NCBI GenBank assembly: GCA_937925855.1
Contig: CALAMO010000010.1
Span: 62,001-126,000, forward strand
DNA from: an uncultured Thiotrichaceae bacterium
GTDB lineage: Bacteria > Pseudomonadota > Gammaproteobacteria > Thiotrichales > Thiotrichaceae
Reading direction: 5' to 3'
DNA: 64,000 nucleotides
Shown: positions 29,721 to 43,390 of the stretch, piece by piece
Position numbering within the stretch: the first letter of the stretch is position 1
Layout of the letters: each line of letters starts with the position of its first letter
The notes under the pieces: model-generated
The model's database searches: none
What the model was told of the DNA's origin: nothing
What the model saw: only the letters and a program-made list of their open reading frames with translations
Position numbers and translations under genes: made by a program

Positions 29721-30830
29721 ATGACTGAAACAAAGCGCCTGTTTGTAGAAAATATATGGTATGCCGCCGCCTGGGAATACGAGGTGCAAGCGGCGGATAA
29801 TAAGCTGGCCCGCACGATTTGTGAGGTCCCACTGGTCTTTTTTGCCAGGGAAAGCGGTGGCTACGTGGCGCTGGATAATCGCTGCTGTCATCGGGCAGCT
29901 CCGCTGCACACCGGGCGGGTGGAGGGTGATTGTATCCGCTGTATGTACCACGGTATGTTATATAACCCGCAGGGTGAAGTGATTGAAATTCCGGGGCAGG
30001 ATCGCATCTCGAAATCACACCGCGTTCGCAGCTATCCGGTGGTGAGTAAGGGCGGCATGATCTGGATTTGGATGGGTGACCCGACGCTGGCGGATGAGCA
30101 GGCTATTTATGATTTTCCGCCGCTCAGTGACCCGGATAACTGGCGGGGTTTTCCGCAGGAGTCCTATCTGCATTACGCGGCGAACTGGCTGTTGATTGTG
30201 GATAATCTGGCAGATTTCTCCCATGTGGCTTTCGTGCATACTAATACGCTCGGCGGTTCGGAGGCTTATGCTTACAGTACGGTGGCGGAAAATATTGAGA
30301 AGCTAGACGATGGTTTTTCTATGGTGCGCTGGCATCGCGGCAGTCCGCCGCCGCCCTACCACAAGGCGGTGATTCCACCCGCCGAGCGGGATAAGCCAGT
30401 GGATCGCTGTAATACTATTAGTATGCATTTGCCCGGTATCTTCTTAATGGAAACCCTGTTTGCCCCGGCGGGCTGGGATGCGGCGGCGAATGACCGCAGT
30501 GTTTGCCGTGAGTACCGCAACTGCCAGTTTATGACGCCGGAAACGCGCCATACCACGCACTTCTTCTGGAACTATCTGCATAATACCGACCGGGATAAGC
30601 CTGAGGTGACGGCGTCGTTGCAAAATTCGCTGCTAGAGGGCTTTATGGAGGATAAGGTGATTATTGAGGCGCAGCAGAAGCTGTTGGAACAAAGTCCAGA
30701 TTTTGTGCCAGTGGGCATTAAGGCGGATGAAGCCTTTGTGCATTTTCGCCGGGTCTGGGCCAAGCGCTTACAGGCTGAAGATGCGGCGCAGCCGCTGGTG
30801 TTTAAAGATAATCCGCGGCGGATATTGTAA
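29721..30830 (+). CDS. Rieske non-haem iron oxygenase, VanA-like (aromatic ring-hydroxylating/O-demethylase type)
   Basis: A 369-residue oxygenase alpha subunit. The Rieske [2Fe-2S] ligands are C55-x-H57 in NRCCHRAAPLH and C74-x2-H77 in CMYHG. The mononuclear iron site lies in VDNLADFSHVAFVHTN (His residues and the bridging Asp). Length and layout match vanillate demethylase oxygenase rather than the large dioxygenase subunits (about 450). No ferredoxin reductase partner gene (VanB-like) is adjacent, so it must draw on one elsewhere. It is followed 35 bp later by an exported rhodanese. Substrate unknown. Confidence 0.92.
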   Translation: MTETKRLFVENIWYAAAWEYEVQAADNKLARTICEVPLVFFARESGGYVALDNRCCHRAAPLHTGRVEGDCIRCMYHGMLYNPQGEVIEIPGQDRISKSHRVRSYPVVSKGGMIWIWMGDPTLADEQAIYDFPPLSDPDNWRGFPQESYLHYAANWLLIVDNLADFSHVAFVHTNTLGGSEAYAYSTVAENIEKLDDGFSMVRWHRGSPPPPYHKAVIPPAERDKPVDRCNTISMHLPGIFLMETLFAPAGWDAAANDRSVCREYRNCQFMTPETRHTTHFFWNYLHNTDRDKPEVTASLQNSLLEGFMEDKVIIEAQQKLLEQSPDFVPVGIKADEAFVHFRRVWAKRLQAEDAAQPLVFKDNPRRIL

Positions 30831-30865
30831 GCTTAATCATAATCACTGCGTTACGGAGAAAAATA

Positions 30866-31330
30866 ATGCACAAGAGGTTACGTGAGGTCGCTCTGCTGCT
30901 GGTCTGCTTACTTGGGTTCAGCAGCTTACAGGTCGTATTTGCCGCCCCGCAAATTATGTCTGCCCCCGCAGCGCAGGCTGCGCTTGCCGCAGATGAGCTG
31001 TTTCTGCTGGATATTCGCACTGAGGACGAATGGCAAGCAGATGGGATTGCGGAAGGTGCTTTCCCGGTCAGTATGCATAAAGCAGATTTCGGTCAGCAGC
31101 TAAATAAAATATTGCGCCAGCTCGGTGACAGAAAACTTGGGCTGATCTGTGCGACTGGTGGGCGGACGCAGCATGTGGCTGCAATTTTAGCGCGCAGCGG
31201 GCTGACGAATCTGGTCGATGTATCGGAGAGCATGCATGGGAATGTGCACGGGCCGGGTTGGATTAAGCGCCAGCTGCCGGTGGTGAGCTTGGAAGCGGCG
31301 CAGCAGCACTATCGCGAGGTTATTAAGTAG
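30866..31330 (+). CDS. Exported rhodanese-like protein
   Basis: A 154-residue protein. A signal peptide (basic MHKRLRE, hydrophobic VALLLVCLLGFSSLQVVFA, cleavage near AFAAP-type residues 26-28) precedes a rhodanese domain with LFLLDIRTEDEWQADGI and the active Cys in LICATGGRTQ. It would act in the periplasm on sulfane sulfur. It lies 35 bp after the Rieske oxygenase and is probably cotranscribed. Immediately downstream, an IS3-family remnant abuts the gene. Confidence 0.9.
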   Translation: MHKRLREVALLLVCLLGFSSLQVVFAAPQIMSAPAAQAALAADELFLLDIRTEDEWQADGIAEGAFPVSMHKADFGQQLNKILRQLGDRKLGLICATGGRTQHVAAILARSGLTNLVDVSESMHGNVHGPGWIKRQLPVVSLEAAQQHYREVIK

Positions 31331-32236: not shown

Positions 32237-32258
32237 TGGCGGATAAATGGCGGATAAA
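32237..32258 (+). repeat. Tandem 11-bp duplication over the fic start codon
   Basis: TGGCGGATAAA occurs twice in direct succession, at 32237-32247 and 32248-32258. The start codon ATG (32247) sits across the junction. The G-rich GGCGGA in the first copy is the only Shine-Dalgarno-like sequence ahead of the gene. A slippage event may have created or moved the start. Confidence 0.6.
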
Positions 32259-33605
32259 TCACAGCTGATTCTTAATATTCTGGCACAGGCTAATGGCCCG
32301 CTTGCGCTTTCTGAAATAAGCGTTAAGTTAAGCGATTTAATTCCCAATCGTACGCTACAGCGTATCTTGAGGCAGCTTGCTGATTCAGGAAAAATAGTTG
32401 CTACGGGAAAAAACCGAAACAGACAATATCAATTGCCGTTATCGAAGCCTGGAATCAATCCGCCAAAAAGTAGCGGATTCAACTTTTCTGCTTATGCTGC
32501 GCCTGCGATTCGGCAAATTCGCCAGCCAATGATGATGCGTGAACCTTGTACCTACCGTACGGAATGGTTGGCTTCCTATATTCCAAACCAACGGTTTTAT
32601 CTGCCGGAAGACCTGCGGCAGCAGCTTATGTTACAGGGGCGTCAAGTAAGCGCTGGACTGCCCGCTGGTACATATGCGCATCAGATTTTCAGCCATTTAT
32701 TGATTGATCTGTCGTACAACTCATCCCGGTTGGAAGGTAATACTTATTCTTTGCCGGATACGAAGCGTCTGTTACTGGATGGCGAAGCGGCAACAGATAA
32801 GCCAGACCTTGAAAGTATTATGTTGCTGAATCATAAGGAGGCGATTCGGTTTTTGGTTGACGGGATTAGCCGCCTGGAAATCACCACGACCAATGTCTGT
32901 GCTTTACACATGCTACTAGCCAGCGATTTGGTTGCGCCCGGTGAGGCGGGTGAGATTCGTGAGGGGATGGTGCGGGTGTCTTCTACGGCATATATCCCAA
33001 TGACAGGGCAGGAAAAGCTGGCGCAGCAATTGGCGCTGATTATGCAGAGAGCGCGCCAGATTCATGACCCGTTTGAGCAGAGTTTTTTCCTGTTGGTGCA
33101 TATTTCTTATTTGCAGGCTTTTGTAGACGTTAATAAACGTACGGCGCGCCTGTCCTGCAATATCCCGTTGGTGCAGCAAAATCTGGTGCCGCTATCGTTC
33201 AACGATATTGAGCAGGATGATTATGCATCGGCTATTTTGGTGGTTTATGAGCAGAACGATACGCAGCCGCTGGCTGAGTTGTATGCCTGGTCTTACCTGC
33301 GCTCCTGTAAACAGTATGCTGCTGCCGCTGAGTCATTGACAATTGATCCGATACGGGCGCACTATCGCCAGCTGCGACGGGATATTATTCGCCAGGTTGT
33401 GCAGCAAAGTAAGCATGGAGCTGTTGCTGAGCAGTTTATGCTGGCGGAGGTAGAGCGGTTGGTGTCGGAGGAGCATCGGGAAAAGGTGCTGGCGGATTTG
33501 CAGTTTGAGGTTGAGCGGCTGGCACCGCATCGGATAGCGGGGATGGGGATTACACAGGGGGAGTTGGCGGATTGGTTGGGCAAAAACGAGTCCACATGTG
33601 ATTGA
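32247..33605 (+). CDS. Fic-domain protein with N-terminal winged helix and altered active-site motif
   Basis: A 452-residue protein. Residues 1-65 form a winged helix (LSEISVKLSDLIPNRTLQRI). The inhibitory helix motif of class II Fic proteins, SSRLEGN, is at residues 159-165. The Fic motif is QAFVDVNKRTAR at 290-301, where the usual HxFx(D/E)GNGR has Gln in place of the catalytic His and NKR for NGR. Loss of the His should abolish classical AMP transfer, so it may be inactive, regulatory or use another chemistry. It ends with a short winged helix (GITQGELADWLG). It borders an IS remnant and an HNH gene, suggesting horizontal acquisition. Confidence 0.85.
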   Translation: MADKSQLILNILAQANGPLALSEISVKLSDLIPNRTLQRILRQLADSGKIVATGKNRNRQYQLPLSKPGINPPKSSGFNFSAYAAPAIRQIRQPMMMREPCTYRTEWLASYIPNQRFYLPEDLRQQLMLQGRQVSAGLPAGTYAHQIFSHLLIDLSYNSSRLEGNTYSLPDTKRLLLDGEAATDKPDLESIMLLNHKEAIRFLVDGISRLEITTTNVCALHMLLASDLVAPGEAGEIREGMVRVSSTAYIPMTGQEKLAQQLALIMQRARQIHDPFEQSFFLLVHISYLQAFVDVNKRTARLSCNIPLVQQNLVPLSFNDIEQDDYASAILVVYEQNDTQPLAELYAWSYLRSCKQYAAAAESLTIDPIRAHYRQLRRDIIRQVVQQSKHGAVAEQFMLAEVERLVSEEHREKVLADLQFEVERLAPHRIAGMGITQGELADWLGKNESTCD

Positions 33606-33613
33606 TTGGTGAC

Positions 33614-34471
33614 TCAATCTGCAGATTTTTCAAATTCATTATCCCTATGATATTTCAAATATTCTTGCAATGAGTCATGGACTTTTGTTAGTCGAGATTC
33701 TGGGGTAACCCCTAGGCAGGCCAATTCGTCAGTAGTTAATATTTGAGATTTTATTAACTTACCTTTCCGGTCAAATGACACAAATCCTCTGTCAAAAAGC
33801 CGGTCAATTGTAGGCTGGAGCAGTAGCCCATTGTATGGGTCAAGGCGTTCTTTGTTTGTGGATACTTTCCAAGGTTTTATATGTGAGGCCAAAAGCAGTG
33901 AACGCCTTTGATAACCAGTCACAGCACAACCACCCCATATACGAAGAAGGCCATCACGAAAGACCCCTTGGCCCACTCTGCTTTTGACGATTGCATTTTT
34001 TTCGGTCACCGTAATTGATGTATCTGCTGCTACGCCAGCTTTGGCTTTATACGACCCGGCTTCTTCTTTAACCTCATTGCTAGTTAAGGTGAATATGAAT
34101 TGGCTGGGCGAGTCTACCAAGCGGTTATGCTGCTCTAATTCAATCCTGCCCATGTAGGTAAATGGAGAGTGGTGTCTTTTGCGATGAAACAGGTGTATTT
34201 CATCATCGTTTGTTGCAGAGTTTATAATTCTGTTGTCACTAGAGTGTTTGGTTTCTCCTTCCCAATGCAGGCAGGAGTCTTCCAGATAGTCATTGTATTG
34301 TGTCTCTGAACTTTGTTTTTCTTCAGTCACAAATAGAATGATAAATTTGGTTTTTGCTGGAGTAATTACACCACGAGCTATTGCCTGAACTCCTCGATAG
34401 CCCCAAAGTTCAGCTAAGTGAGGTCTGTCGTATTGCTGACCTTCAACCAAATTATTAAAACTTACTGCCAT
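33614..34471 (-). CDS. DUF3427-like domain fused to HNH endonuclease
   Basis: A 285-residue protein. The N-terminal part (residues about 1-130) with LHWEGETKHSSDN, DDEIHLFHRKR and SPFTYMGRIEL resembles the DUF3427/YDG-related DNA-base-reader region found at the end of some restriction helicases. The C-terminal HNH_2 domain has GGCAVTGYQRRSLLLASHIKPW and DPYNGLLLQPTIDRLFDRGFVSFD, with the His and Asn expected for metal-dependent cutting. The architecture suits a stand-alone modification-dependent nuclease. It is convergent with fic (8 bp apart), and this stretch is AT-richer than the flanking operons. Confidence 0.82.
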   Translation of the reverse strand: MAVSFNNLVEGQQYDRPHLAELWGYRGVQAIARGVITPAKTKFIILFVTEEKQSSETQYNDYLEDSCLHWEGETKHSSDNRIINSATNDDEIHLFHRKRHHSPFTYMGRIELEQHNRLVDSPSQFIFTLTSNEVKEEAGSYKAKAGVAADTSITVTEKNAIVKSRVGQGVFRDGLLRIWGGCAVTGYQRRSLLLASHIKPWKVSTNKERLDPYNGLLLQPTIDRLFDRGFVSFDRKGKLIKSQILTTDELACLGVTPESRLTKVHDSLQEYLKYHRDNEFEKSAD

Positions 34472-34564
34472 ATTTTAGATCTCTAAAAAGATAAGGAATA
34501 CTATATCTGATTCGAGTTTAAAATATTATCAACGGATCGTATTATTTTACACTGGACATAGATG

Positions 34565-34604
34565 CAAAAAAGCCCCAGCGAACGTGTAATCCACCAGGGC
34601 TTTC
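34565..34604 (-). terminator. Rho-independent terminator of the LLM/TRAP operon
   Basis: On the minus strand AAAGCCC pairs with GGGCTTT across a loop of about 20 bases and runs into TTTTTTGC. It lies about 25 bp after the stop of the TRAP receptor gene, at the end of the six-gene operon that begins at 40231. Confidence 0.8.
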
Positions 34605-34629
34605 GCAGAAACTAAAGTCCAATCAGAAC

Positions 34630-35697
34630 TTACTTAATATCCGCGTAATCACCTTCAATCGCAGTCTCAGCCTTATTCGCCGCATCACGCAGCAAGCCTA
34701 ACCACTTTTCGCCGTCTTTTACGTTCTTACCAAACCACTCATAAACCGGTGTGGCTGCTTCAGCGAACTTAGCCTTGTCTTCTGGCGTTGGGACATACAG
34801 ATTACCACCACCCTTCACAAAGTCAGCATAGGCTTGAATCGACTTACGCTTTGGTGAAGCAAAGGTCGCCTGCTGCAGCGCAGAGAAACCGTCAACCACA
34901 ACCTTACGCAGGCCTTCGTCCATCTTCATGAAAGAATCCTGACTCATGAACCAAAGCGCACCCATATAAGCATGTCCATCCAACGTAACGTTCTTCAGGC
35001 CCGCATCCGGGAATTTCATCCCCATAATGTCAGTAATACCGTTCTTAGACCCTTCAACCACGCCGGTCTGGAAAGAAGTAAACAGCTCAGGCCATGGAAT
35101 CGGCGTCGGGCTTGCACCCAGTGCTTTCACCAGCTCCTGCGGCAGATCGGCCACAACGGTACGAATCTTCAGACCTTTCATATCTTCCGGGGTCTTCACC
35201 ACACGCTTGGTGTTAGCAAAGTTACGCCAGCCACCCGTGTTACCAATAGTCATCAGGCGAACTTTATTATCGGAATCCGCCAGAATTGACTTACGCATTT
35301 CGCGGGTAAAGTTGCCGGTAAATACATGCTCAGCGACACGGTCATCACGCAAAATGTACGGCAGATCCAAGACCTGAACATAAGGATACATATTCGCGGT
35401 ACCGCCCGAGGTCGAGATATAAATATCAACCGAGCCATCTTCCAGCGCCTGCATACATTCCGTACCGTTCGCACACAGCTGGGTACCAATGAACAGTTCA
35501 ACTTCGATCTTGCCGTTGGAACGGCTTTCTACGAAATCTTTGAATACAACAAGACCATCATAGTCTTCGTCATTTTCATTCGAGTTTGCGACTGCGCGTA
35601 GTTTGAAATCAGCCGCTTGCGTTGCCGCAATCGGACTGATCAGAAGTGCTGCACCTAAGACGGCAGCAGCGGTTTTTTTAGCTAAATCAGAAAACAT
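34630..35697 (-). CDS. TRAP transporter substrate-binding protein (DctP family)
   Basis: A 355-residue periplasmic receptor. A Sec signal (MFSDLAKKTAAAVLGAALLI) ends near ATQAAD. The mature part shows FKDFVESRSNGKIEVELF, then KRVVKTPEDMKGLKIRTV, with the arginine that clamps carboxylates in DctP proteins. GVVEGSKNGITDI is also typical. AGGAGGAG precedes the ATG. It is the last gene of the operon, after both permeases, which is less common than the receptor-first order. The ligand is probably organic anionic; the operon suggests a sulfonate or sulfosugar. Confidence 0.94.
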   Translation of the reverse strand: MFSDLAKKTAAAVLGAALLISPIAATQAADFKLRAVANSNENDEDYDGLVVFKDFVESRSNGKIEVELFIGTQLCANGTECMQALEDGSVDIYISTSGGTANMYPYVQVLDLPYILRDDRVAEHVFTGNFTREMRKSILADSDNKVRLMTIGNTGGWRNFANTKRVVKTPEDMKGLKIRTVVADLPQELVKALGASPTPIPWPELFTSFQTGVVEGSKNGITDIMGMKFPDAGLKNVTLDGHAYMGALWFMSQDSFMKMDEGLRKVVVDGFSALQQATFASPKRKSIQAYADFVKGGGNLYVPTPEDKAKFAEAATPVYEWFGKNVKDGEKWLGLLRDAANKAETAIEGDYADIK

Positions 35698-35730
35698 GGT
35701 TTTCTCCTCCTATTGAAAAACAAATCTATC

Positions 35731-37020
35731 TTACGTCACCAAACCCAACCACCTCGGCACCGTCATCGACAACGCCGGGAAAAACGTAATCAAAAATATA
35801 ACGACCACCTCCATCGCCAGAAACGGCAAAATGGCTTTCGAGATGGTTTCGACTTTCTCCCCGGACACGCTGGAGGCGACAAACAATACCAATCCCATTG
35901 GTGGCGTTGCCAGCCCCACGGTCAGGTTTACACTCATAATAATAGCAAAATGCACCGGATCGACGCCAAGGCTAATAAATACCGGCCCCAGTATTGGCCC
36001 GAGAATAATAATAGCAGGCCCGGCATCCAGAAACATACCGACAACAAACAGCAGTAGATTAATCAGGAATAATAAAATCAGCACATTAGCGGTCAGGCTC
36101 AACACAAAATCAGCCAGATTCTCCGCAACATGGCTCAGGCTAACCACCGTTTTGAATGCAATCGCCGAACCCACCAACAGCAAAACGACCGCTGATGAAA
36201 TCGCTGATTTGGTCAAAATGTCGGGTAATTCCCTGAAAGTCAGCGTGCGCATGAAAAACAGACCCAGTACCAGCGCATAGGCAACAGCCACCGCCGAGGC
36301 TTCCGTGGGCGTAAAGATACCGCCTAAAATACCGCCAAGAATGATGACCGGAGCCATTAGCGGTGGGATGGCGCTAATAGTCGCTTTGGCACGCTCACGC
36401 CCGGTAGACTTGACGCCGCTCTGCGGCAGATCATAACGGTTAGCCAGCAACCTAACCACCAGCATCAGGCCTAAACCTACCATCAGTCCCGGAATGATAC
36501 CCGCCGCAAACAGCGCAGCCACCGACACTTCCATGGTATAGGCGTAGATAATCATAATGCCGGACGGTGGAATAATCGGCCCAATTACTGAGGAAGCTGC
36601 GGTAACCGCCGTGGCAAACTTACGCGAGTAGCCGTTTTTCTCCATCGCCGGAATCAACATCGACCCCAGCGCGGAGGTATCCGCTACCGCTGAACCCGAC
36701 AGGCCGGCAAATAACATCGACGCCATAATATTCACATGCGCCAGACCGCCACGCACATGCCCAATCAACGCCCGGCTAAACTCCACCAGCCGCAGCGTAA
36801 TCCCACCCCGATTCATTAACTCACCCGCCAGCATAAAGAACGGAATCGCCATTAAGGGGAAAGAATCAAGGCCGTTGTAAATATTACGGAATAACAGCGG
36901 AATATCGCGCTCCATCCCTTCGGCATAAATCAGTACGCCCGGCGCTACCAGCATCGCGAAAAATACCGGCATACCAATCAGCAGCAGAATGAGAAACAGC
37001 ACCAAAAATAATTGCAGCAT
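35731..37020 (-). CDS. TRAP transporter large permease (DctM family)
   Basis: A 429-residue membrane protein, standard for DctM. It opens FLVLFLILLLIGMPVFFAML and carries GGLAHVNIMASMLFAGLSGS, AVTAASSVIGPIIPPSGIMI and VNLTVGLATPPMGLVLFV. About 12 helices are expected. It forms the sodium-driven translocation unit with the small permease, whose stop is 2 bp upstream of its start. Gene order in this operon is monooxygenase, reductases, small permease, large permease, receptor. Confidence 0.95.
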   Translation of the reverse strand: MLQLFLVLFLILLLIGMPVFFAMLVAPGVLIYAEGMERDIPLLFRNIYNGLDSFPLMAIPFFMLAGELMNRGGITLRLVEFSRALIGHVRGGLAHVNIMASMLFAGLSGSAVADTSALGSMLIPAMEKNGYSRKFATAVTAASSVIGPIIPPSGIMIIYAYTMEVSVAALFAAGIIPGLMVGLGLMLVVRLLANRYDLPQSGVKSTGRERAKATISAIPPLMAPVIILGGILGGIFTPTEASAVAVAYALVLGLFFMRTLTFRELPDILTKSAISSAVVLLLVGSAIAFKTVVSLSHVAENLADFVLSLTANVLILLFLINLLLFVVGMFLDAGPAIIILGPILGPVFISLGVDPVHFAIIMSVNLTVGLATPPMGLVLFVASSVSGEKVETISKAILPFLAMEVVVIFLITFFPALSMTVPRWLGLVT

Positions 37021-37022
37021 GA

Positions 37023-37604
37023 TCAGGATTCCTGTGCCACAAGCGCAGCGGGTTTAACCGGTGCAGGGAAATCTTCTTCTCGGCCTAAGCGTATGCCAAT
37101 TTCACGCAGTAATAGCTCAATGTTTATAAGCAACATGCCGCCAAAACAGACCGGCATCGCCAGATAAACCCAGGCGCGCTTCAGTTTTTCAGTGGGATCC
37201 CATGGCAATCGAATGGAGGCCGTGTAAGTACGGAAGCCCCGGTCAAAGAAATTAATCGCCAGCTCCAGCAGTTTTGCCAAAACCACACCCGCGATAAGCA
37301 GCAGCGCAATAATCAGCGCGGAACGCAACACGGCGGGTAGATACCCCTGCAGCATATCAATCGAGACAAATCCACCGTGGCGATAAGCCGTTGGTGCGGC
37401 GAGCGCCGTCATCCAAATCATTAGCGCCCGTGCCGCTTCTTCCGGCCAGGGCAGCGCATTATTGAGGCCGTAACGATAAAAAACCTGTAACAGGATAATC
37501 AGCGTCATTAGCGCAACACACATCCAGGCCAACTGTTGCCCGATTAATAATAGCGCAGAATTTAAACGACACAAATTACGGTACAGGGCGCTTAAAAAGC
37601 CCAT
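37023..37604 (-). CDS. TRAP transporter small permease (DctQ family)
   Basis: A 193-residue protein with four helices. The DctQ signature is VFYRYGLNNALPWPEEAARALMIW-like and spans residues about 46-69; MTALAAPTAYRHGGFVSIDM follows. A 26-bp gap with GGGAGGAGGG separates it from the flavin reductase gene. It pairs with the large permease. Close packing with the enzymes upstream ties transport and catabolism in one unit. Confidence 0.93.
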   Translation of the reverse strand: MGFLSALYRNLCRLNSALLLIGQQLAWMCVALMTLIILLQVFYRYGLNNALPWPEEAARALMIWMTALAAPTAYRHGGFVSIDMLQGYLPAVLRSALIIALLLIAGVVLAKLLELAINFFDRGFRTYTASIRLPWDPTEKLKRAWVYLAMPVCFGGMLLINIELLLREIGIRLGREEDFPAPVKPAALVAQES

Positions 37605-37629
37605 GAAAACCCTCCTCCCGACGAGCGGC

Positions 37630-38175
37630 TTATGCCGCTGCCTTTAGCGTGCCAAAACGGCTGCGCTCAAAAATCAAACCCTCACCCTGCGCACATTCGT
37701 AGGCCTGCACATTGCCTAATAAAATATCATGATCGCCAGCGGTCACAACCTGATGTAAATCGCAATCAAACCATGCGACACAATCACGCACGATGATACG
37801 CCCACTGGGGGCCTGCTCGGTTGCTATCGCAGCAAAACGTTCTTCCTGACTGCCACGCGCAAAATGCATCGCCAACGCAGCCTGTTTCGCGGATAACACA
37901 CTCACCGTATAACCGCCGCCGCCCAAATAAGCGTCACGACTGCCACAGGCTTGCTGCAAGCTCCATAGCACTAAAGCCGGATCAAGCGATACCGCATTAA
38001 ACGAAGAACAGGTCATGCCATAATCCTGTCCCTCAAACTGCGTCGTGACCACGGTAACACCGGTGGCAAAACAGCCCAACGCCTGGCGCAGCGAACGCTG
38101 ATCGTTAGCGGGCTGGCCTGCCTGCTGATTATGCTCTGCCTGATCGGTGTGCTCCATGGCGCTACCCGAACTCAT
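37630..38175 (-). CDS. Flavin reductase family protein (SmoA/HpaC-like)
   Basis: About 181 residues of the FMN-binding split-barrel flavin reductase family, which supplies reduced FMN to two-component monooxygenases. Key blocks are LRQALGCFATGVTVVTT, YGMTCSSFNAVSLDPALVLWSL and the C-terminal AGDHDILLGNVQAYE. The start is set at the ATG whose ATGA overlaps the aldo/keto reductase stop; a longer frame starts at 38205. The Ser/Gln-rich first 25 residues are probably disordered. Partner: the LLM monooxygenase two genes upstream. Its position fits smoA of the sulfoquinovose monooxygenase cluster. Confidence 0.9.
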   Translation of the reverse strand: MSSGSAMEHTDQAEHNQQAGQPANDQRSLRQALGCFATGVTVVTTQFEGQDYGMTCSSFNAVSLDPALVLWSLQQACGSRDAYLGGGGYTVSVLSAKQAALAMHFARGSQEERFAAIATEQAPSGRIIVRDCVAWFDCDLHQVVTAGDHDILLGNVQAYECAQGEGLIFERSRFGTLKAAA

Positions 38176-39074
38176 GGCACTTCCTGTCCCGCTGCCGCTG
38201 TCCATAGCTCATACCAGGTTTCGCGGTCGATGCTGACGTTTAGTGACTTGTGCGCATCCTTGATCCGCTGCAGGTTGTTAGTTCCCACGATCGGTAAAAT
38301 TCCCGCCGGGTGGGCGAGTAGCCATGCCATTGCCACATGATCAATGCCACAATCATTTTCACCCGCAATACGCGCTAATAATGGCCGCACACGCTGTGCT
38401 GCTGCATCATCGCCAAACAAGCGCCCACCTGCCAGCGGCGACCACGCCATTGGTTGACAACCCAGACGCTGCTGTTGCGCTAACGTGCCGTCGAGGAAAG
38501 TATCATGCGTCAACACGCTCATCTCAATCTGGTTAGTCACCAGCTGATGGTGCATTTTACTTTGCAGTAAATCCCAGTCCCACGGTTTAAAATTAGACAC
38601 GCCGACCGCTTTCACTTTACCGGCATCAATCATCTGATCCAGGGTACGTCCCGTCGCTTCCGCATCCATAAACGGATCAGGCCGGTGCAATAACAGTAAA
38701 TCCAGGTGACCGGTGTGTAAGTGACGCAGACTTTCATCCAGGGAGAAAGTGATATGCGCGGGCGAGCTGTCGTAATACTTGACCCGGCGCTCCGGGTGTT
38801 TGTCCGTCGTCAGCATAATGTCGCACTTACTGATCAGCTGCATCTGGTCGCGTAATTCAGGCGCCTCGGCCAAGGCTTTGCCGAAGAGCGCCTCGCACTC
38901 ATAGCCGCCATAAATATCAGCGTGATCAAAACTAGTCATACCCTGTGCCAGACAGGCATCAATCTTGGCACGCACATGACTGGTGGAGGTATCTTCATCA
39001 TCACCTAAACGCCACACACCATAAATCAGGCGGCTCAGGGATAGTTGCGAATTGAGTTCTACTGCCGGGATCAT
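38172..39074 (-). CDS. Aldo/keto reductase, YdhF-like (SmoB candidate)
   Basis: A 300-residue TIM-barrel NADPH oxidoreductase. The AKR tetrad is visible: Asp and Tyr in FDHADIYGGYECE, Lys in LISKCDIM and His in LLLLHRPDP. The C-terminal cofactor region has GTNNLQRIKDA. It lies between the LLM monooxygenase (1-bp overlap) and the flavin reductase (ATGA overlap), so the three are translated together. In the sulfo-SMO pathway an aldo/keto reductase (SmoB) reduces the 6-oxo-glucose made by SmoC to glucose; an equivalent aldehyde-reducing step is the best guess here. Confidence 0.9.
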   Translation of the reverse strand: MIPAVELNSQLSLSRLIYGVWRLGDDEDTSTSHVRAKIDACLAQGMTSFDHADIYGGYECEALFGKALAEAPELRDQMQLISKCDIMLTTDKHPERRVKYYDSSPAHITFSLDESLRHLHTGHLDLLLLHRPDPFMDAEATGRTLDQMIDAGKVKAVGVSNFKPWDWDLLQSKMHHQLVTNQIEMSVLTHDTFLDGTLAQQQRLGCQPMAWSPLAGGRLFGDDAAAQRVRPLLARIAGENDCGIDHVAMAWLLAHPAGILPIVGTNNLQRIKDAHKSLNVSIDRETWYELWTAAAGQEVP

Positions 39075-40231
39075 TAACGACGCTCTCCAATACCTAACGG
39101 GGTGGCGGGTGTGCTGGCGGGAACCCGGCCATACACTTCGGGCAGGGAACAGGTCTTCAGTTCCGGCAGCACCTTCTCACCAAAAATTTTGCATTCTTCG
39201 ATATGCGGGTAGCCGGAAAAGATAAACGCCCGCATGCCCATTTTGTGGTATCGCTCGATTTTACTCAATACCTGATCAACGCTGCCGACTAAAGCCGCCC
39301 CGCAGCCGGAACGGGCGCGACCAATACCTGTCCATAAATGCGGCTCACTAAAACCGTCATCATCGGCGATTTTACGCTGCTCAGACTGGAGTGAAACACC
39401 AAAGCTTTTGGCATCCAGCGAACGATTGCGAATCTCATCGCCCTTATCCAGATCCAGCTTCGACAATAATTCCTGTGCGTATTCACGCGCTTCTGCTTCG
39501 GTATCACGCACCACCATGTGAACACGCAGCCCATAATCCAGCGTGCGACCGTATTCTTCGGCTTTATCCGCCACCGCTTTCATGCGCCCGGCAAGATTTT
39601 CTTCATTCTCCGGCCACATGAGGTAAACATCGCAGTGTTGGGCGCATAAATCCACTGCGGGGGGTGAGTAACCCCCAAAGTACAGCAACGGCCCACCGTT
39701 TTGCTGATACGGTTTCACGGCCTCGGTGGATAAGTTGGCGAGCTGATAGAATTGGCCGTCGTAGTTGATTTCGTCCTGCGTCCAGGCCTGGCGCAAAATT
39801 TCCACCACTTCGCGTGAACGCTGATAACGGTCGGCGCTGTCTTCCTTCATGCCCGGCATGTCGGAAGAAATAATATTAAGTGTCAGCCGCCCTTTCAGGA
39901 TGTGATCCAGCGTCGCCACCGTACGCGCCAACATCGGCGGATGCACTTCGCCGCAGCGAATCGCGGCCAGTAAATTAATATGCTGCGTTAGCGGCGCAAC
40001 AGCTGAGGCGAAAGTCAGGGTATCCTGACCCGCCTGATAGGATGAGGGGCAAAGAATATTGCGAAAACCCAATTTGTCGGCACTCAGCAGGATATTGCTG
40101 GTGTTCTCCCAACTGCTGCGATAATCGCCGTCGTGTACACCGAGATAACGAAAGTCTTCATTACACAGCGGCGCAAACCACGCTACTTCAGCAGCATCCA
40201 GATCGGGACTGTGAATCCTTACAGCAGTCAT
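39074..40231 (-). CDS. LLM-class FMNH2-dependent monooxygenase, SsuD/SmoC-like
   Basis: A 385-residue luciferase-like monooxygenase. It has the SsuD-type pattern: FRNILCPSSYQAGQDTLTFA, AAIRCGEVHPPMLARTVATLD, GRLTLNIISSDMPGMKEDSA, LYFGGYSPPAVDLCAQHCDVY and ARSGCGAALVGSVDQVL. Such enzymes cleave C-S bonds of sulfonates with O2 and FMNH2, releasing sulfite and an aldehyde. Flavin reductase and aldehyde reductase genes follow in smoC-smoB-smoA order. The gene starts the operon; AAGGAT lies 7-8 bases before the ATG. Substrate (sulfoquinovose or another sulfonate) is inferred. Confidence 0.9.
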   Translation of the reverse strand: MTAVRIHSPDLDAAEVAWFAPLCNEDFRYLGVHDGDYRSSWENTSNILLSADKLGFRNILCPSSYQAGQDTLTFASAVAPLTQHINLLAAIRCGEVHPPMLARTVATLDHILKGRLTLNIISSDMPGMKEDSADRYQRSREVVEILRQAWTQDEINYDGQFYQLANLSTEAVKPYQQNGGPLLYFGGYSPPAVDLCAQHCDVYLMWPENEENLAGRMKAVADKAEEYGRTLDYGLRVHMVVRDTEAEAREYAQELLSKLDLDKGDEIRNRSLDAKSFGVSLQSEQRKIADDDGFSEPHLWTGIGRARSGCGAALVGSVDQVLSKIERYHKMGMRAFIFSGYPHIEECKIFGEKVLPELKTCSLPEVYGRVPASTPATPLGIGERR

Positions 40232-40307
40232 GAGCGTCGCATCCTTCGCTAATTAGAAGGCTAGAATCTCATAATCCACAGCATGAATCAATGGTAAATG
40301 AATTTTG

Positions 40308-40351: not shown

Positions 40352-42373
40352 TCATGCGATAATTTCAGTGATCCCAGCCTGCTCCGTAGTTGGCGCGTAT
40401 TCGATTTCCAAGCGATTTCGGCCATTGCCTTTAGCACGATACAAAGCTTCATCAGCCGCTGCAATAATCGATTCTTGGCTGCTGTAATCGGCTGAATTGG
40501 CTAAGCCTAAACTGACGGTGAGCGATTCCACAGGGTCAAAGTCAGAATGTGCAATTTGTGCGCGCAATTGATCCAATACCATAGCCGCTTGTTCTAAAGA
40601 GGTGTGCGGCATGATAATGATGAATTCTTCACCTCCCCAGCGGCCTACAATATCTGCTTCTCTGACTCGGCGGCGCATGATGGCTGCGACGCTAACTAAG
40701 ATGCTGTCGCCGACCTGATGACCATACGTGTCGTTGACTCGTTTGAAGTGGTCTATATCCACCAGCGCAACGCTGAAATGATTATGATAGCGTTTAGCTT
40801 CAGTGATAGCCGCGATCAGGATGTCATCCAGCTTGTGGCGGTTGTACAGGCCAGTTAAGTTGTCGGTTACCGCCAGGGTTTGTAACTGATTATTCTTCTG
40901 CTCCAGCTCGCTATTCAGCTGGCTGAGGCGGCTGCGTGCCAGCTGAATTTCAGTGCCTGAGGCGATGAGGCGATCTAATTCTCTGATCCCAACTTGCATA
41001 ACCGGTAGTGGTTTGTTATTGCCCAGTTTGTTGAGGCGTGAAATATATTCAGTTACCAGCTCTACCGGGTTGCTTAGTAGTGCTGCCAAACGATTGGCTT
41101 GTTTTTTCAAGTAGGTAAAAAACAAGACGAAAAATAAGCTGGTCAATAGTATGAAGTAGACGCCCAGGTTTCTGATAAAACTCTGGTATTGCGTCACTTG
41201 CTGAGTGACTTTATCAAGACGTGTCAGGATGATCAGGTGCCACCCGGTTTCTTCGACGTGCTGCTGACTTAGTAAGTATTCTTCATCCTTGATTTTTACA
41301 CAACAGGACGCCTTATTCTTGGCATTGGCTGTGCCGTCGAACTGAAGTCCTGCGGTGTTGAAAACGCTATGCTGTAATAGGTTATTCGGCTGTGCCTTAA
41401 GTTTTTCAGTATTCGCATCAGGTGCTTTGGCGGAATGTTCCGCCGCCCCCGCCATATTGAGCAACTGTCCGGCCTTGCCAGAAAAAGCCAATACATCACC
41501 TTTTGGGTTGGAAATTAATACTTTACTGTCCCAGATAAGTCGGTTGTTCAACAGGTTGGCCGCAAACTTATCCAGGACAACATTGACACCGATGATGCCT
41601 TCTAAAAAACCATAGCGGTAGACTGGGGTGATGCTAGACAGTAGCCAACGCTGCTTTTTCTCATCCAGGTAAGCCTCAGTCCAGATTGTTTTTCGATTCG
41701 GATTATTGCGGGTATCGGCCAAGTAATAGTATTTGAAAAAGCTCGGGTATTTTGCTGCCTCATAAGCCGCTGGCATATTGGTGATCGGCGGGTACATGCG
41801 GTTAATTTGATCCCACGAACTGAAGTAGGCGCTGTCTATACTTGGGTTGCTATCGACCGTGCGTTGGAAATGTAAGTCAAGTTCTTCGGTTAGGCGCAGG
41901 CGCTGTTGCAGTGATTCACTGCTTTCAGCTTGTGCAGAAACGTAAAGGCTGGAGGGAAGTGACGAGCCGTAAATCGTCGAACCGTCCATCAAGGTATTTA
42001 AATCGCGATACAAAAAGCCGCTCTCTGCCCGCTCTAATTGAAGTTCAGCCTGCTCTGTAATGACAGCGCTATCTGCCTGAAACAGACGCTCAGCCACCGT
42101 GCGTAGGTAGCTCGTGTCTAGTGCTATCGATTGCAGCCTTTGATTCAAGTTACGTGCTTTGTTGCGTGCAATTTCATCGACGGTTGATTGGGCGCGCTCC
42201 CGCATTTCCGTCAGACTGCTCTGATAGGTGTAGTAAGTGCCACCAAAATACAGTAGCAGCATGAGCACAATCAAGCTGCTTAGAGGGATGACCGCAGACT
42301 TCAGGAAGTGCCGGTAGACGACATGGCGCAATCCTGGTTCTGTATCGGGTTTATTTTTCAACAAAGTAAACAT
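40352..42373 (-). CDS. Membrane diguanylate cyclase with periplasmic Cache-type sensor
   Basis: About 673 residues. Helix 1 (AVIPLSSLIVLMLLLYFGGTY) and helix 2 (LGVYFILLTSLFFVLFFTYL) flank a periplasmic region of about 370 residues with double-Cache features (WTEAYLDEKKQRWLLSSITPVY, EGIIGVNVVLDKFA). A coiled coil leads into the GGDEF domain. GGEEF at about residues 580-584 is intact and preceded by the RxxD inhibitory site (READ, five residues ahead), so the enzyme should make c-di-GMP under product control. No EAL domain. An ATG is chosen over the GTG nine bases upstream. The signal is unknown; neighbours suggest a nutrient. Confidence 0.92.
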   Translation of the reverse strand: MFTLLKNKPDTEPGLRHVVYRHFLKSAVIPLSSLIVLMLLLYFGGTYYTYQSSLTEMRERAQSTVDEIARNKARNLNQRLQSIALDTSYLRTVAERLFQADSAVITEQAELQLERAESGFLYRDLNTLMDGSTIYGSSLPSSLYVSAQAESSESLQQRLRLTEELDLHFQRTVDSNPSIDSAYFSSWDQINRMYPPITNMPAAYEAAKYPSFFKYYYLADTRNNPNRKTIWTEAYLDEKKQRWLLSSITPVYRYGFLEGIIGVNVVLDKFAANLLNNRLIWDSKVLISNPKGDVLAFSGKAGQLLNMAGAAEHSAKAPDANTEKLKAQPNNLLQHSVFNTAGLQFDGTANAKNKASCCVKIKDEEYLLSQQHVEETGWHLIILTRLDKVTQQVTQYQSFIRNLGVYFILLTSLFFVLFFTYLKKQANRLAALLSNPVELVTEYISRLNKLGNNKPLPVMQVGIRELDRLIASGTEIQLARSRLSQLNSELEQKNNQLQTLAVTDNLTGLYNRHKLDDILIAAITEAKRYHNHFSVALVDIDHFKRVNDTYGHQVGDSILVSVAAIMRRRVREADIVGRWGGEEFIIIMPHTSLEQAAMVLDQLRAQIAHSDFDPVESLTVSLGLANSADYSSQESIIAAADEALYRAKGNGRNRLEIEYAPTTEQAGITEIIA

Positions 42374-42382
42374 GATTTGCAC

Positions 42383-42685
42383 GCATCTATTATTTATTTT
42401 AATTATTTGTCGGCCACTATTTATTTGTCCTTAATGGCGCTATATCAGTTTTCACTGATATCTTGAGCGTTGTGGTGCTGCTGTGCAAGTTATATTCGAT
42501 TGATGGTGAAACTTTTTCGTAACGTTTTTTTACGGTTGTTCCGGCCTGCCTTAATGGTTCGGCCAAGGTCAGCACACTTTTTTTGAAAGATAACTGAGAG
42601 CAGGGTATGTTGGTGTAAATGACAGTGGGTGCAAGCCATTTTAGTAGATTTACTGTGTGCAGCATGCGTTGCTAAAGGATGGGAT
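42383..42685. other. Divergent intergenic region between the diguanylate cyclase and GntR genes
   Basis: About 300 bp without a supported gene. It contains a perfect dyad at 42442-42461: ATATCAGT and ACTGATAT around a four-base TTTC loop, about 70-90 bp upstream of the cyclase start. This could be an operator, perhaps for the adjacent GntR protein. Promoters for both genes must lie here. An 82-codon minus frame in the region has no recognisable features and is not called. Confidence 0.5.
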
Positions 42686-43390
42686 GTGCCGGAAAAGTTA
42701 CCGCTTTACTTACAGATAAAAGAGCTTTTACTGCGTGAACTCGGTGCCGGTAAATGGTTGCAGGGCGAGCGCCTGCCTGCAGAAGCAGTGCTGGCCGAGC
42801 AGCTGGGTGTTGCCGTAGGTACGCTGCGTAAAGCCCTGGCAGGCCTAGAAGATGACGGTATGCTCGAGCGGCGTCAGGGGTCTGGGACTTATGTGGCGGC
42901 CAGTCAGGCTGGGCAGGCGATTTATCATTTTTTTCGCCTTGAAAATCTTAATGGGAAAACCGGTATACCACAGGCTGATGTGGTGTCATTGGAGCGTATG
43001 CGGCATGAACCAACGGCCCAGTACATGCAGCTGCCGGTGACACAACTGTTTTGGCGGGTGCGCCGCCATCGCCTGTTGGATACGGTGGTGGTCGCGATTG
43101 AGGATGTGATGCTACCAGTGCAACGCGCACCAGAGTTACAGCTGGAGCAGCTACATGAATCACTGTATTTGCATTACCGTGAACAGCTGGGGTTTTGGAT
43201 CGCTCATGTAGTTGATGCGGTGACGGTCGGTGCTATGCCGGACTGGGGGAATACCGCGCTGGGGCTCAGTGTGGGTGAGGCCTGTGGCATGGTGCAGCGC
43301 CAGTCATTTGATCAATACGGTGAGATCGCGGAGTTTTCTTTACTGTGGTTTAATCCGCAAAGAGCACGTTATATGGCGCGCTGGGCCTAA
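42686..43390 (+). CDS. GntR-family transcriptional regulator (HutC/UTRA type)
   Basis: A 234-residue regulator. The N-terminal winged helix has LYLQIKELLLRELGAGKWLQ, LPAEAVLAEQLGVAVGTLRK and DDGMLERRQGSGTYVA. The C-terminal UTRA ligand domain follows (residues about 90-230). GTG at 42686 is chosen because AAAGGA lies 7 bases ahead and homology begins at LPLYLQIK; a GTG 57 bases upstream has no site. It is followed closely by an Fe-S protein and an MFS transporter, which are the likely targets. The ligand is unknown. Confidence 0.9.
   Translation: MPEKLPLYLQIKELLLRELGAGKWLQGERLPAEAVLAEQLGVAVGTLRKALAGLEDDGMLERRQGSGTYVAASQAGQAIYHFFRLENLNGKTGIPQADVVSLERMRHEPTAQYMQLPVTQLFWRVRRHRLLDTVVVAIEDVMLPVQRAPELQLEQLHESLYLHYREQLGFWIAHVVDAVTVGAMPDWGNTALGLSVGEACGMVQRQSFDQYGEIAEFSLLWFNPQRARYMARWA

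Follow-up and report, generated by a model that had tools for sequence, protein, structure and literature searches.

A probable sulfoquinovose monooxygenase operon with a TRAP transporter in an uncultured gammaproteobacterium of the Thiotrichaceae

What does a bacterium import when the genes of its sulfonate monooxygenase are followed, in the same operon, by an ion-driven tripartite ATP-independent periplasmic (TRAP) transporter? The question is raised by six genes on the minus strand of a 64,000-nucleotide stretch from an uncultured Thiotrichaceae bacterium (assembly GCA_937925855.1, contig CALAMO010000010.1, positions 62,001 to 126,000), which we call the window and whose coordinates are used throughout. 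The enzymes resemble those of the sulfolytic sulfoquinovose monooxygenase (sulfo-SMO) pathway, an established route (PMC13372026, PMC12890257, PMC9594981; here and below, papers are cited for individual passages). At about 10 billion tons per year, the plant sulfosugar sulfoquinovose (SQ) is among the largest organosulfur pools (PMC10755693, PMC12890257), and the importers that PMC9594981 and PMC12421959 name for sulfosugar pathways are ATP-binding cassette (ABC) systems. We consider it quite probable that this locus is a sulfo-SMO operon in which a TRAP transporter takes up SQ and/or SQ-glycerol, here in a gammaproteobacterium.

The first gene (39074..40231) encodes a SmoC-like protein, a putative FMN-dependent sulfoquinovose monooxygenase of the luciferase-like monooxygenase (LLM) class (PF00296). 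Over its full length it matches the PDB chains 7oh2 and 7olf (E about 1e-177), with 261 and 259 of 384 residues identical (67-68%), and the next match, 7jv3, reaches only 2.4e-58. The two chains carry the PDB labels 'Alkanesulfonate monooxygenase' and 'Methanesulfonate sulfonatase', and we take them to be SmoC of Rhizobium oryzae and Agrobacterium. Next comes a smoB-like aldo/keto reductase (AKR) gene (38172..39074; PF00248), whose product would reduce 6-oxo-glucose to glucose. Its best PDB matches, 7bbz and 7bby (E about 4e-107), are labelled aryl-alcohol dehydrogenase and are presumably Agrobacterium SmoB; they stand well ahead of 4r9o (2.6e-71) and YdhF (1e-69). A smoA-like gene (37630..38205; PF01613) completes the enzyme part and places a dedicated flavin reductase (FR) within the operon, as is expected of a sulfo-SMO cluster. 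The first-pass annotation had recognized the SmoC-SmoB-SmoA order in these three genes, with 1-bp and ATGA overlaps between them, and these matches bear it out. The LLM and AKR genes share one base, and the ATGA overlap appears when the FR is started at the internal ATG at 38175, its probable start as read from the sequence. Sulfo-SMO clusters have been defined by SmoC and SmoB homologues no more than 10 open reading frames (ORFs) apart (PMC13372026), and in the window the two genes are immediate neighbors.

In two trees the window LLM falls among proteobacterial SmoC-like proteins, in the second of them together with both reference chains. Both trees set it apart from an annotated SsuD of Pantoea (L105), which is 35% identical and sits on a very long branch, and from two proteins at 48-50% identity from Novosphingobium humi (L103) and Rhizobium sp. 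WSM4643 (L104). By analogy these two may be SQ monooxygenases as well, since SquD of N. aromaticivorans is one (review PMC12890257). The nearest relatives of the window protein belong to a congener (90% identity over 224 columns) and to an uncultured gammaproteobacterium. The deep forks are weakly supported and SsuD is represented by one row; the trees can be relied on for grouping with SmoC and not with SsuD, though not for anything finer. The comparisons of the LLM with SmoC and SsuD, and of the AKR with SmoB, that had been suggested as a check have therefore come out on the side of the sulfo-SMO enzymes.

Behind the enzymes lie the genes for the TRAP small permease DctQ (37023..37604; PF04290), the large permease DctM (35731..37020; PF06808, with TIGR00786 over its cut-off) and the solute-binding protein DctP (34630..35697; PF03480), so all three subunits are present; the DctP N-terminus resembles a signal peptide by eye. 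ORFs and Pfam families thus confirm the complete LLM-AKR-FR-DctQ-DctM-DctP order read at first pass. The terminator placed at the operon end is also recovered as a probable intrinsic one (34560..34607, minus strand), a hairpin followed by TTTTTT with a fold energy of -24.1 kcal/mol for 66 bases (z -3.5, 200 shuffles). This hairpin is not among the sites of a simple terminator scan that needs loops of 3-8 and T close behind, and which at 9 sites against 7.1 expected performs at chance level and is uninformative either way.

Does this arrangement recur? A scan of a species-genome collection gave 335 confirmed SmoC relatives, of which the best 80 were retained, so that the counts describe near relatives. 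Beside smoC, at the thresholds used, the TRAP module is found in 30 of the 80 loci, ABC parts in 20 and neither in 30; no locus has both. ABC parts were sought with proteins from Burkholderiales loci, which would miss other ABC systems, and in 13 of the 30 loci with neither importer less than 3 kb of sequence lies past the enzymes, so that an importer may be cut off. LLM, AKR, FR, DctQ and DctM follow one another in window order on one strand in 28 of the 80 loci, 25 of which add DctP, and because so many related loci share it the gene order is not chance. The exceptions among the TRAP loci are L031, with its TRAP genes inverted some kb away, and L030, with no AKR or FR match; of the 30 TRAP loci 28 show an FR match, as do 40 of the 50 others. 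The TRAP module is found on the megaplasmid of Ruegeria sp. TM1040 and in Rhizobium sp. SL42, for example. The SL42 SmoC shares 89% of its residues with the 7olf chain and occurs with the TRAP module and a GH188 gene, and Agrobacterium is described with an SQ-glycerol ABC transporter, so nearly identical SmoC proteins appear to work beside importers of different types. The Agrobacterium-type importer is missing from the window cluster, which has TRAP instead, and is not universal, the ABC parts sought having been found in the 20 loci above. On the SmoC tree the TRAP label changes 13 times, an overcount in that cut-off contigs such as L078 are labelled 'none', with at least 10 changes forced by well supported branches. 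Because TRAP and ABC rows interleave on this tree, repeated exchange of the importer module is probable. Weaker TRAP matches are present in 10 of the 50 non-TRAP loci, one of them the cut-off L078 and five of them the loci with a different TRAP system that are named below. SmoC-like proteins without this TRAP module also occur in Saprospiraceae, in Anaerolineales and on an Emticicia plasmid (L044, L066, L082, L083, L106); the plasmid gene adjoins a sodium/solute symporter gene and an annotated GH95 gene.

A sample of 369 genomes of the class, the window's included, has SmoC (E 1e-130 or better) in five and this DctP (E 1e-110 or better) in three, the window genome being in both sets. All three DctP genes share a contig with smoC, which in G302 is cut by the contig end. 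The other three SmoC genomes are G197, which has GH188 and GntR and, in the stretch seen, no such TRAP module, G068, where a short contig carries GH188 and GntR, and G361, which shows SmoC alone. The SmoC of G197 is identical to that of a locus from the gammaproteobacterial family Granulosicoccaceae (L007).

If the substrate is SQ, a sulfoquinovosidase might be expected nearby. After AKR, regulator and reductase, the family most common beside smoC is a 377-aa Gfo/Idh/MocA protein that matches 8zn9, 8qc2 and 8qc3, and 8QC2 is a GH188 structure (PMC11465081). GH188 accompanies smoC in nearly all TRAP loci (28 of 30) and in 31 of the 50 others. A tblastn search of the window gave no such gene; the window genome (G000) encodes one on another contig, C2:104160-105287 (L099:8161-9288), which matches 8zn9 at E 2.7e-143 and is 62% identical to the L007 protein. 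The GH188 sulfonate residues R166, L170 and K172 (PMC11465081) correspond, by eye, to the R, L and K of EHRFPFLEK in this protein. The observation made at first pass that ABC importer and sulfoquinovosidase are both missing and a TRAP system is present therefore holds for the cluster, and has to be amended for the sulfoquinovosidase, which on sequence grounds is available elsewhere in the genome. The family is NAD+-dependent (PMC10755693) and the start of the window-genome protein has no visible signal peptide by eye, so glycosides would be imported before cleavage, and SQ-glycerol should then be among the ligands of DctP, alongside SQ or in its place. Among nine congeneric genomes, the same two, the window's and G008, have matches to SmoC (at E 1e-3 or better), to DctP (1e-60) and to GH188 (1e-40); the GH188 gene of G008 is on another contig than its operon, and the 6,000 bases seen of that contig include no smo gene.

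A GH31 protein of the same genome (L003/L095, contig C31) was also considered as the sulfoquinovosidase and is not supported as such. Its best models are of the MalA type (316.9 bits at best, cut-off 800), it scores 137.7 bits against 553 for PRK10426, which we take to be the YihQ model, all of these being under cut-off, and its gene sits among unrelated genes. It is 40-42% identical to the GH31 proteins of nine non-TRAP smo loci compared. The family as a whole occurs in ten non-TRAP smo loci (L012, L017, L021, L022, L034, L040, L050, L054, L056, L079), eight of them with ABC parts.

The regulatory region links the window to the same group of loci. A gene for a GntR/UTRA regulator (42629..43390, plus strand; PF00392, PF07702) belongs to cluster c2, with the regulators of 63 other loci, in which it is divergent to smoC. 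In the window a gene for a Cache-GGDEF diguanylate cyclase (40352..42382, minus strand; PF00990 over cut-off, dCache_1 below its cut-off) separates gntR from smoC. At 35% identity none of the 80 related loci shows a match to this gene, which is apparently an insertion and not a pathway member. The regions upstream of smoC at the 80 loci, on two plasmids and in three additional genomes, 85 in all, yielded a motif made up of two half-sites with the consensus AATTGATATACTATTGATTT. In this set L121 duplicates L007 and some regions are near-copies; the window is left out of it and relatives of the window are included. Sites are found in 79 of the 85 regions, with none in L031, L044, L055, L066, L082 and L083. 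In the 64 kb of the window the position weight matrix finds one strong site, the predicted GntR operator AATTCATTTACCATTGATTC upstream of smoC (40285..40304, minus strand), with a score of 30.0; the next best scores 8.8, and 1700 regions of 260 bases, shuffled base by base, reach 12.3 at most. It is also the genome's only match to the derived pattern with no mismatch. At three or fewer mismatches the genome has 31 matches against 18 for the reversed pattern, and the weaker matches are mostly noise. As the sole strong site in the window lies upstream of smoC, the putative operator has stayed with smoC though the regulator gene has been separated from it. The motif is common to TRAP and ABC clusters. 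A promoter scan of the window performed at chance level. An operator shared with GH188 was tried and rejected, there being none in the 19 kb of L099 or in the congener's 6 kb stretch (L112).

From the observed gene relationships, gene order, recurrence, conserved motif and co-occurrence, we infer the catalytic, transport and regulatory activities of the following scheme, ligand binding by DctP included. DctPQM would collect SQ and/or SQ-glycerol in the periplasm, the sulfonate being clamped by Arg158, Arg179 and Asn219 of DctP. The cytosolic, NAD+-dependent GH188 sulfoquinovosidase encoded elsewhere in the genome would free SQ from its glycosides. SmoA would provide FMNH2, with which SmoC would cut the C-S bond to give sulfite and 6-oxo-glucose, and SmoB would reduce the latter to glucose, which could enter central metabolism through glucokinase. 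The GntR/UTRA regulator would control the operon at 40285-40304.

The transport step depends on what DctP binds. The window protein is 61-83% identical to 23 other smo-linked DctP proteins, in an alignment of 24 from which two further cluster members were left out as their mechanical ORFs are too long, and R158, R179, N219, W202, C75 and C81 are invariant in it. The predicted model, with a mean confidence (pLDDT) of 81.5, has a TRAP receptor fold. Foldseek places the isethionate-binding IseP first (24% identity) with many TRAP receptors nearly tied, and VIA-align places 4p47 first and IseP fourth, again with many near ties and no decision on the ligand. In IseP the sulfonate is contacted by Arg156, Arg177 and Asn217, and in addition by Ser95, Asn98 and Tyr153 (PMC11668362). 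The clamp of two arginines and one asparagine, which carboxylate binders also have, is matched by R158, R179 and N219 in 24 of 24 proteins, and the further contacts are replaced by Thr96, Gly99 and Gly155, also in 24 of 24. Both IseP and 4p47 are without cysteine at the two positions of the invariant Cys75/Cys81 pair (printed letters). This distant alignment suggests to us that the anion clamp is kept and that the pocket around it is wider, with the room that a hexose sulfonate would require.

Several observations weigh against SQ uptake by this transporter. DctP is only 22-24% identical to IseP in structural alignments, and where IseP has Asn98, Tyr153 and His244, DctP has invariant Gly99, Gly155 and Ala247. 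A clamp of this type also serves carboxylates in other TRAP receptors (PMC11668362), and the arginine has been said to restrict TRAP receptors to carboxylates (PMC4646407), a conclusion to which IseP itself is an exception. A different TRAP system (DctM 37-43% identity) is found about 2.6-6 kb from the smo enzymes in L016, L019, L023, L025 and L047. Some TRAP neighbors of smo loci may therefore be incidental; alternatively, this distant system could be a second, independent TRAP association. In the window genome, the GH188 gene is unlinked to the operon, the 19 kb around it (L099) holds no operator site at threshold, and no YeiH-type exporter (PF03601) was found. The congeneric co-occurrence concerns two positive genomes and would arise once in 36 by chance, relatedness ignored. 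Two of these points, the restriction to carboxylates stated in PMC4646407 and the different TRAP system near five smo loci, keep us from rating SQ uptake through TRAP more highly.

It is conceivable that the enzymes act on SQ and the TRAP module on something else, such as a sugar acid, the two being adjacent by accident or for a related sugar. Such an arrangement would fit the carboxylate-type clamp of DctP (PMC4646407), the unrelated TRAP systems near some smo loci and the scatter of the transporter label over the SmoC tree, whose 13 changes imply that it moves independently of SmoC. Yet DctP proteins 61-83% identical to that of the window adjoin smo genes in the 23 other loci aligned, the TRAP module and ABC parts were not found together, and each of the three class genomes with this DctP has smoC on the same contig, which leaves an accidental pairing unlikely. 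Less probable again is that enzymes and transporter together serve another sulfonate, such as sulfofucose, isethionate or an alkanesulfonate, whose aldehyde product the AKR would reduce. A TRAP system for isethionate does exist (PMC11668362), and sulfofucose is used by another bacterium via another pathway (PMC12421959), but the closeness of the LLM to the solved SmoC chains, still greater for the TRAP-linked SmoC of SL42, argues for SQ, as do GH188 in nearly all TRAP loci and in the window genome and an operator motif common to TRAP and ABC clusters. We give almost no credence to ordinary SsuD-type scavenging of alkanesulfonates for sulfur. SsuD (TIGR03565) is indeed the top NCBIfam match of the LLM, but at 255.6 bits it lies far below the equivalog cut-off of 518.2, and the annotated SsuD is distant in the trees. 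To our knowledge, moreover, AKR and TRAP genes are not partners of ssu genes. The first-pass annotation had left the choice between free SQ and a different sulfonate. The GntR partner, the operator, the co-occurrence with GH188 and the relationship to SmoC and SmoB favor SQ, and the restriction to free SQ loses ground, given the GH188 gene elsewhere in the genome.

Some findings concern the fate of the carbon and of the sulfite. Glucokinase is present in the window genome, and the YeiH-type exporter family is found in 6 of the 30 TRAP loci. In the stretches examined, a gene for a di-haem cytochrome c peroxidase/MauG-like protein (PF03150) accompanies 19 of the 30 TRAP loci and none of the 50 others (Fisher 5e-11, ignoring relatedness and cut-off contigs). 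Examples are L013:16084-17847 and L005:16174-17556; in L120 and L124, of one genus, the gene lies inside the operon, and in the congener G008 it follows dctP. Contig C2 of the window genome carries a homologue (58%). As a clean partner of the operon the gene was rejected, another congener (G006, 74% complete) having the homologue without a SmoC match. It is possible that the protein takes part in sulfite or redox handling.

The closest described system is the smo cluster of Agrobacterium tumefaciens (sulfo-SMO/sulfo-ASMO), which has SmoC, SmoB and SmoA in common with the window and from which sulfolytic chemistry would be expected here. The window differs in having TRAP and not the SQ-glycerol ABC transporter (PMC9594981), in a sulfoquinovosidase that is unlinked and of the GH188 type, and in its gammaproteobacterial host. 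On the Ruegeria sp. TM1040 megaplasmid, GH188 and GntR genes are divergent to smoCBA-dctQMP. This is the same operon and regulator family as in the window, whose genome differs in having GH188 on another contig and a GGDEF gene between gntR and smoC; the TM1040 operon is followed by a cytochrome c peroxidase-like gene and an exporter gene, neither of which is in the window cluster. GH188 is near-universal in Roseobacter sulfo-SMO clusters (PMC10755693), and those of earlier studies probably include TRAP versions like that of TM1040. Compared with IseP, DctP keeps the clamp and has Gly, Gly and Ala at the three differing pocket positions, consistent with a larger ligand, together with a cysteine pair that IseP lacks at these positions.

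Other genes lie beyond the operon end. The stretch 29721-31330 encodes a Rieske oxygenase, whose C-terminal domain is vanillate demethylase-like, and after it a rhodanese-domain protein, and between this unit and the operon are a Fic-domain gene on the plus strand and an HNH endonuclease gene on the minus strand (32247-34471).

No link between TRAP transporters and SQ appears in the titles and abstracts of the literature searched, nor was the word 'TRAP' found in passages of PMC13372026, PMC12890257, PMC9594981 and PMC10755693. What is new is modest, namely that a known operon recurs in a version with a TRAP system, found here in a gammaproteobacterium with an unlinked GH188. A more far-reaching view, to which we would give even chances, is that the smo-linked DctP proteins form a distinct family of sulfosugar TRAP receptors, marked by Cys75/Cys81 and the Gly99/Gly155/Ala247 pocket, and the first TRAP system for a sulfosugar. 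The module would have replaced the ABC importer more than once on a shared sulfo-SMO core and regulon, and may work with the di-haem peroxidase-like protein found only beside the TRAP version. The pathway is listed for alpha- and beta-proteobacteria in Table 1 of PMC12890257 and is also known from Actinomycetota, Spirochaetota and one Vibrio genome (PMC13372026); the window operon adds Gammaproteobacteria to the groups of that table. If the SmoC-tied receptor family is what it appears to be, it would provide a marker gene for this uptake in metagenomes and a direct test by ligand binding.

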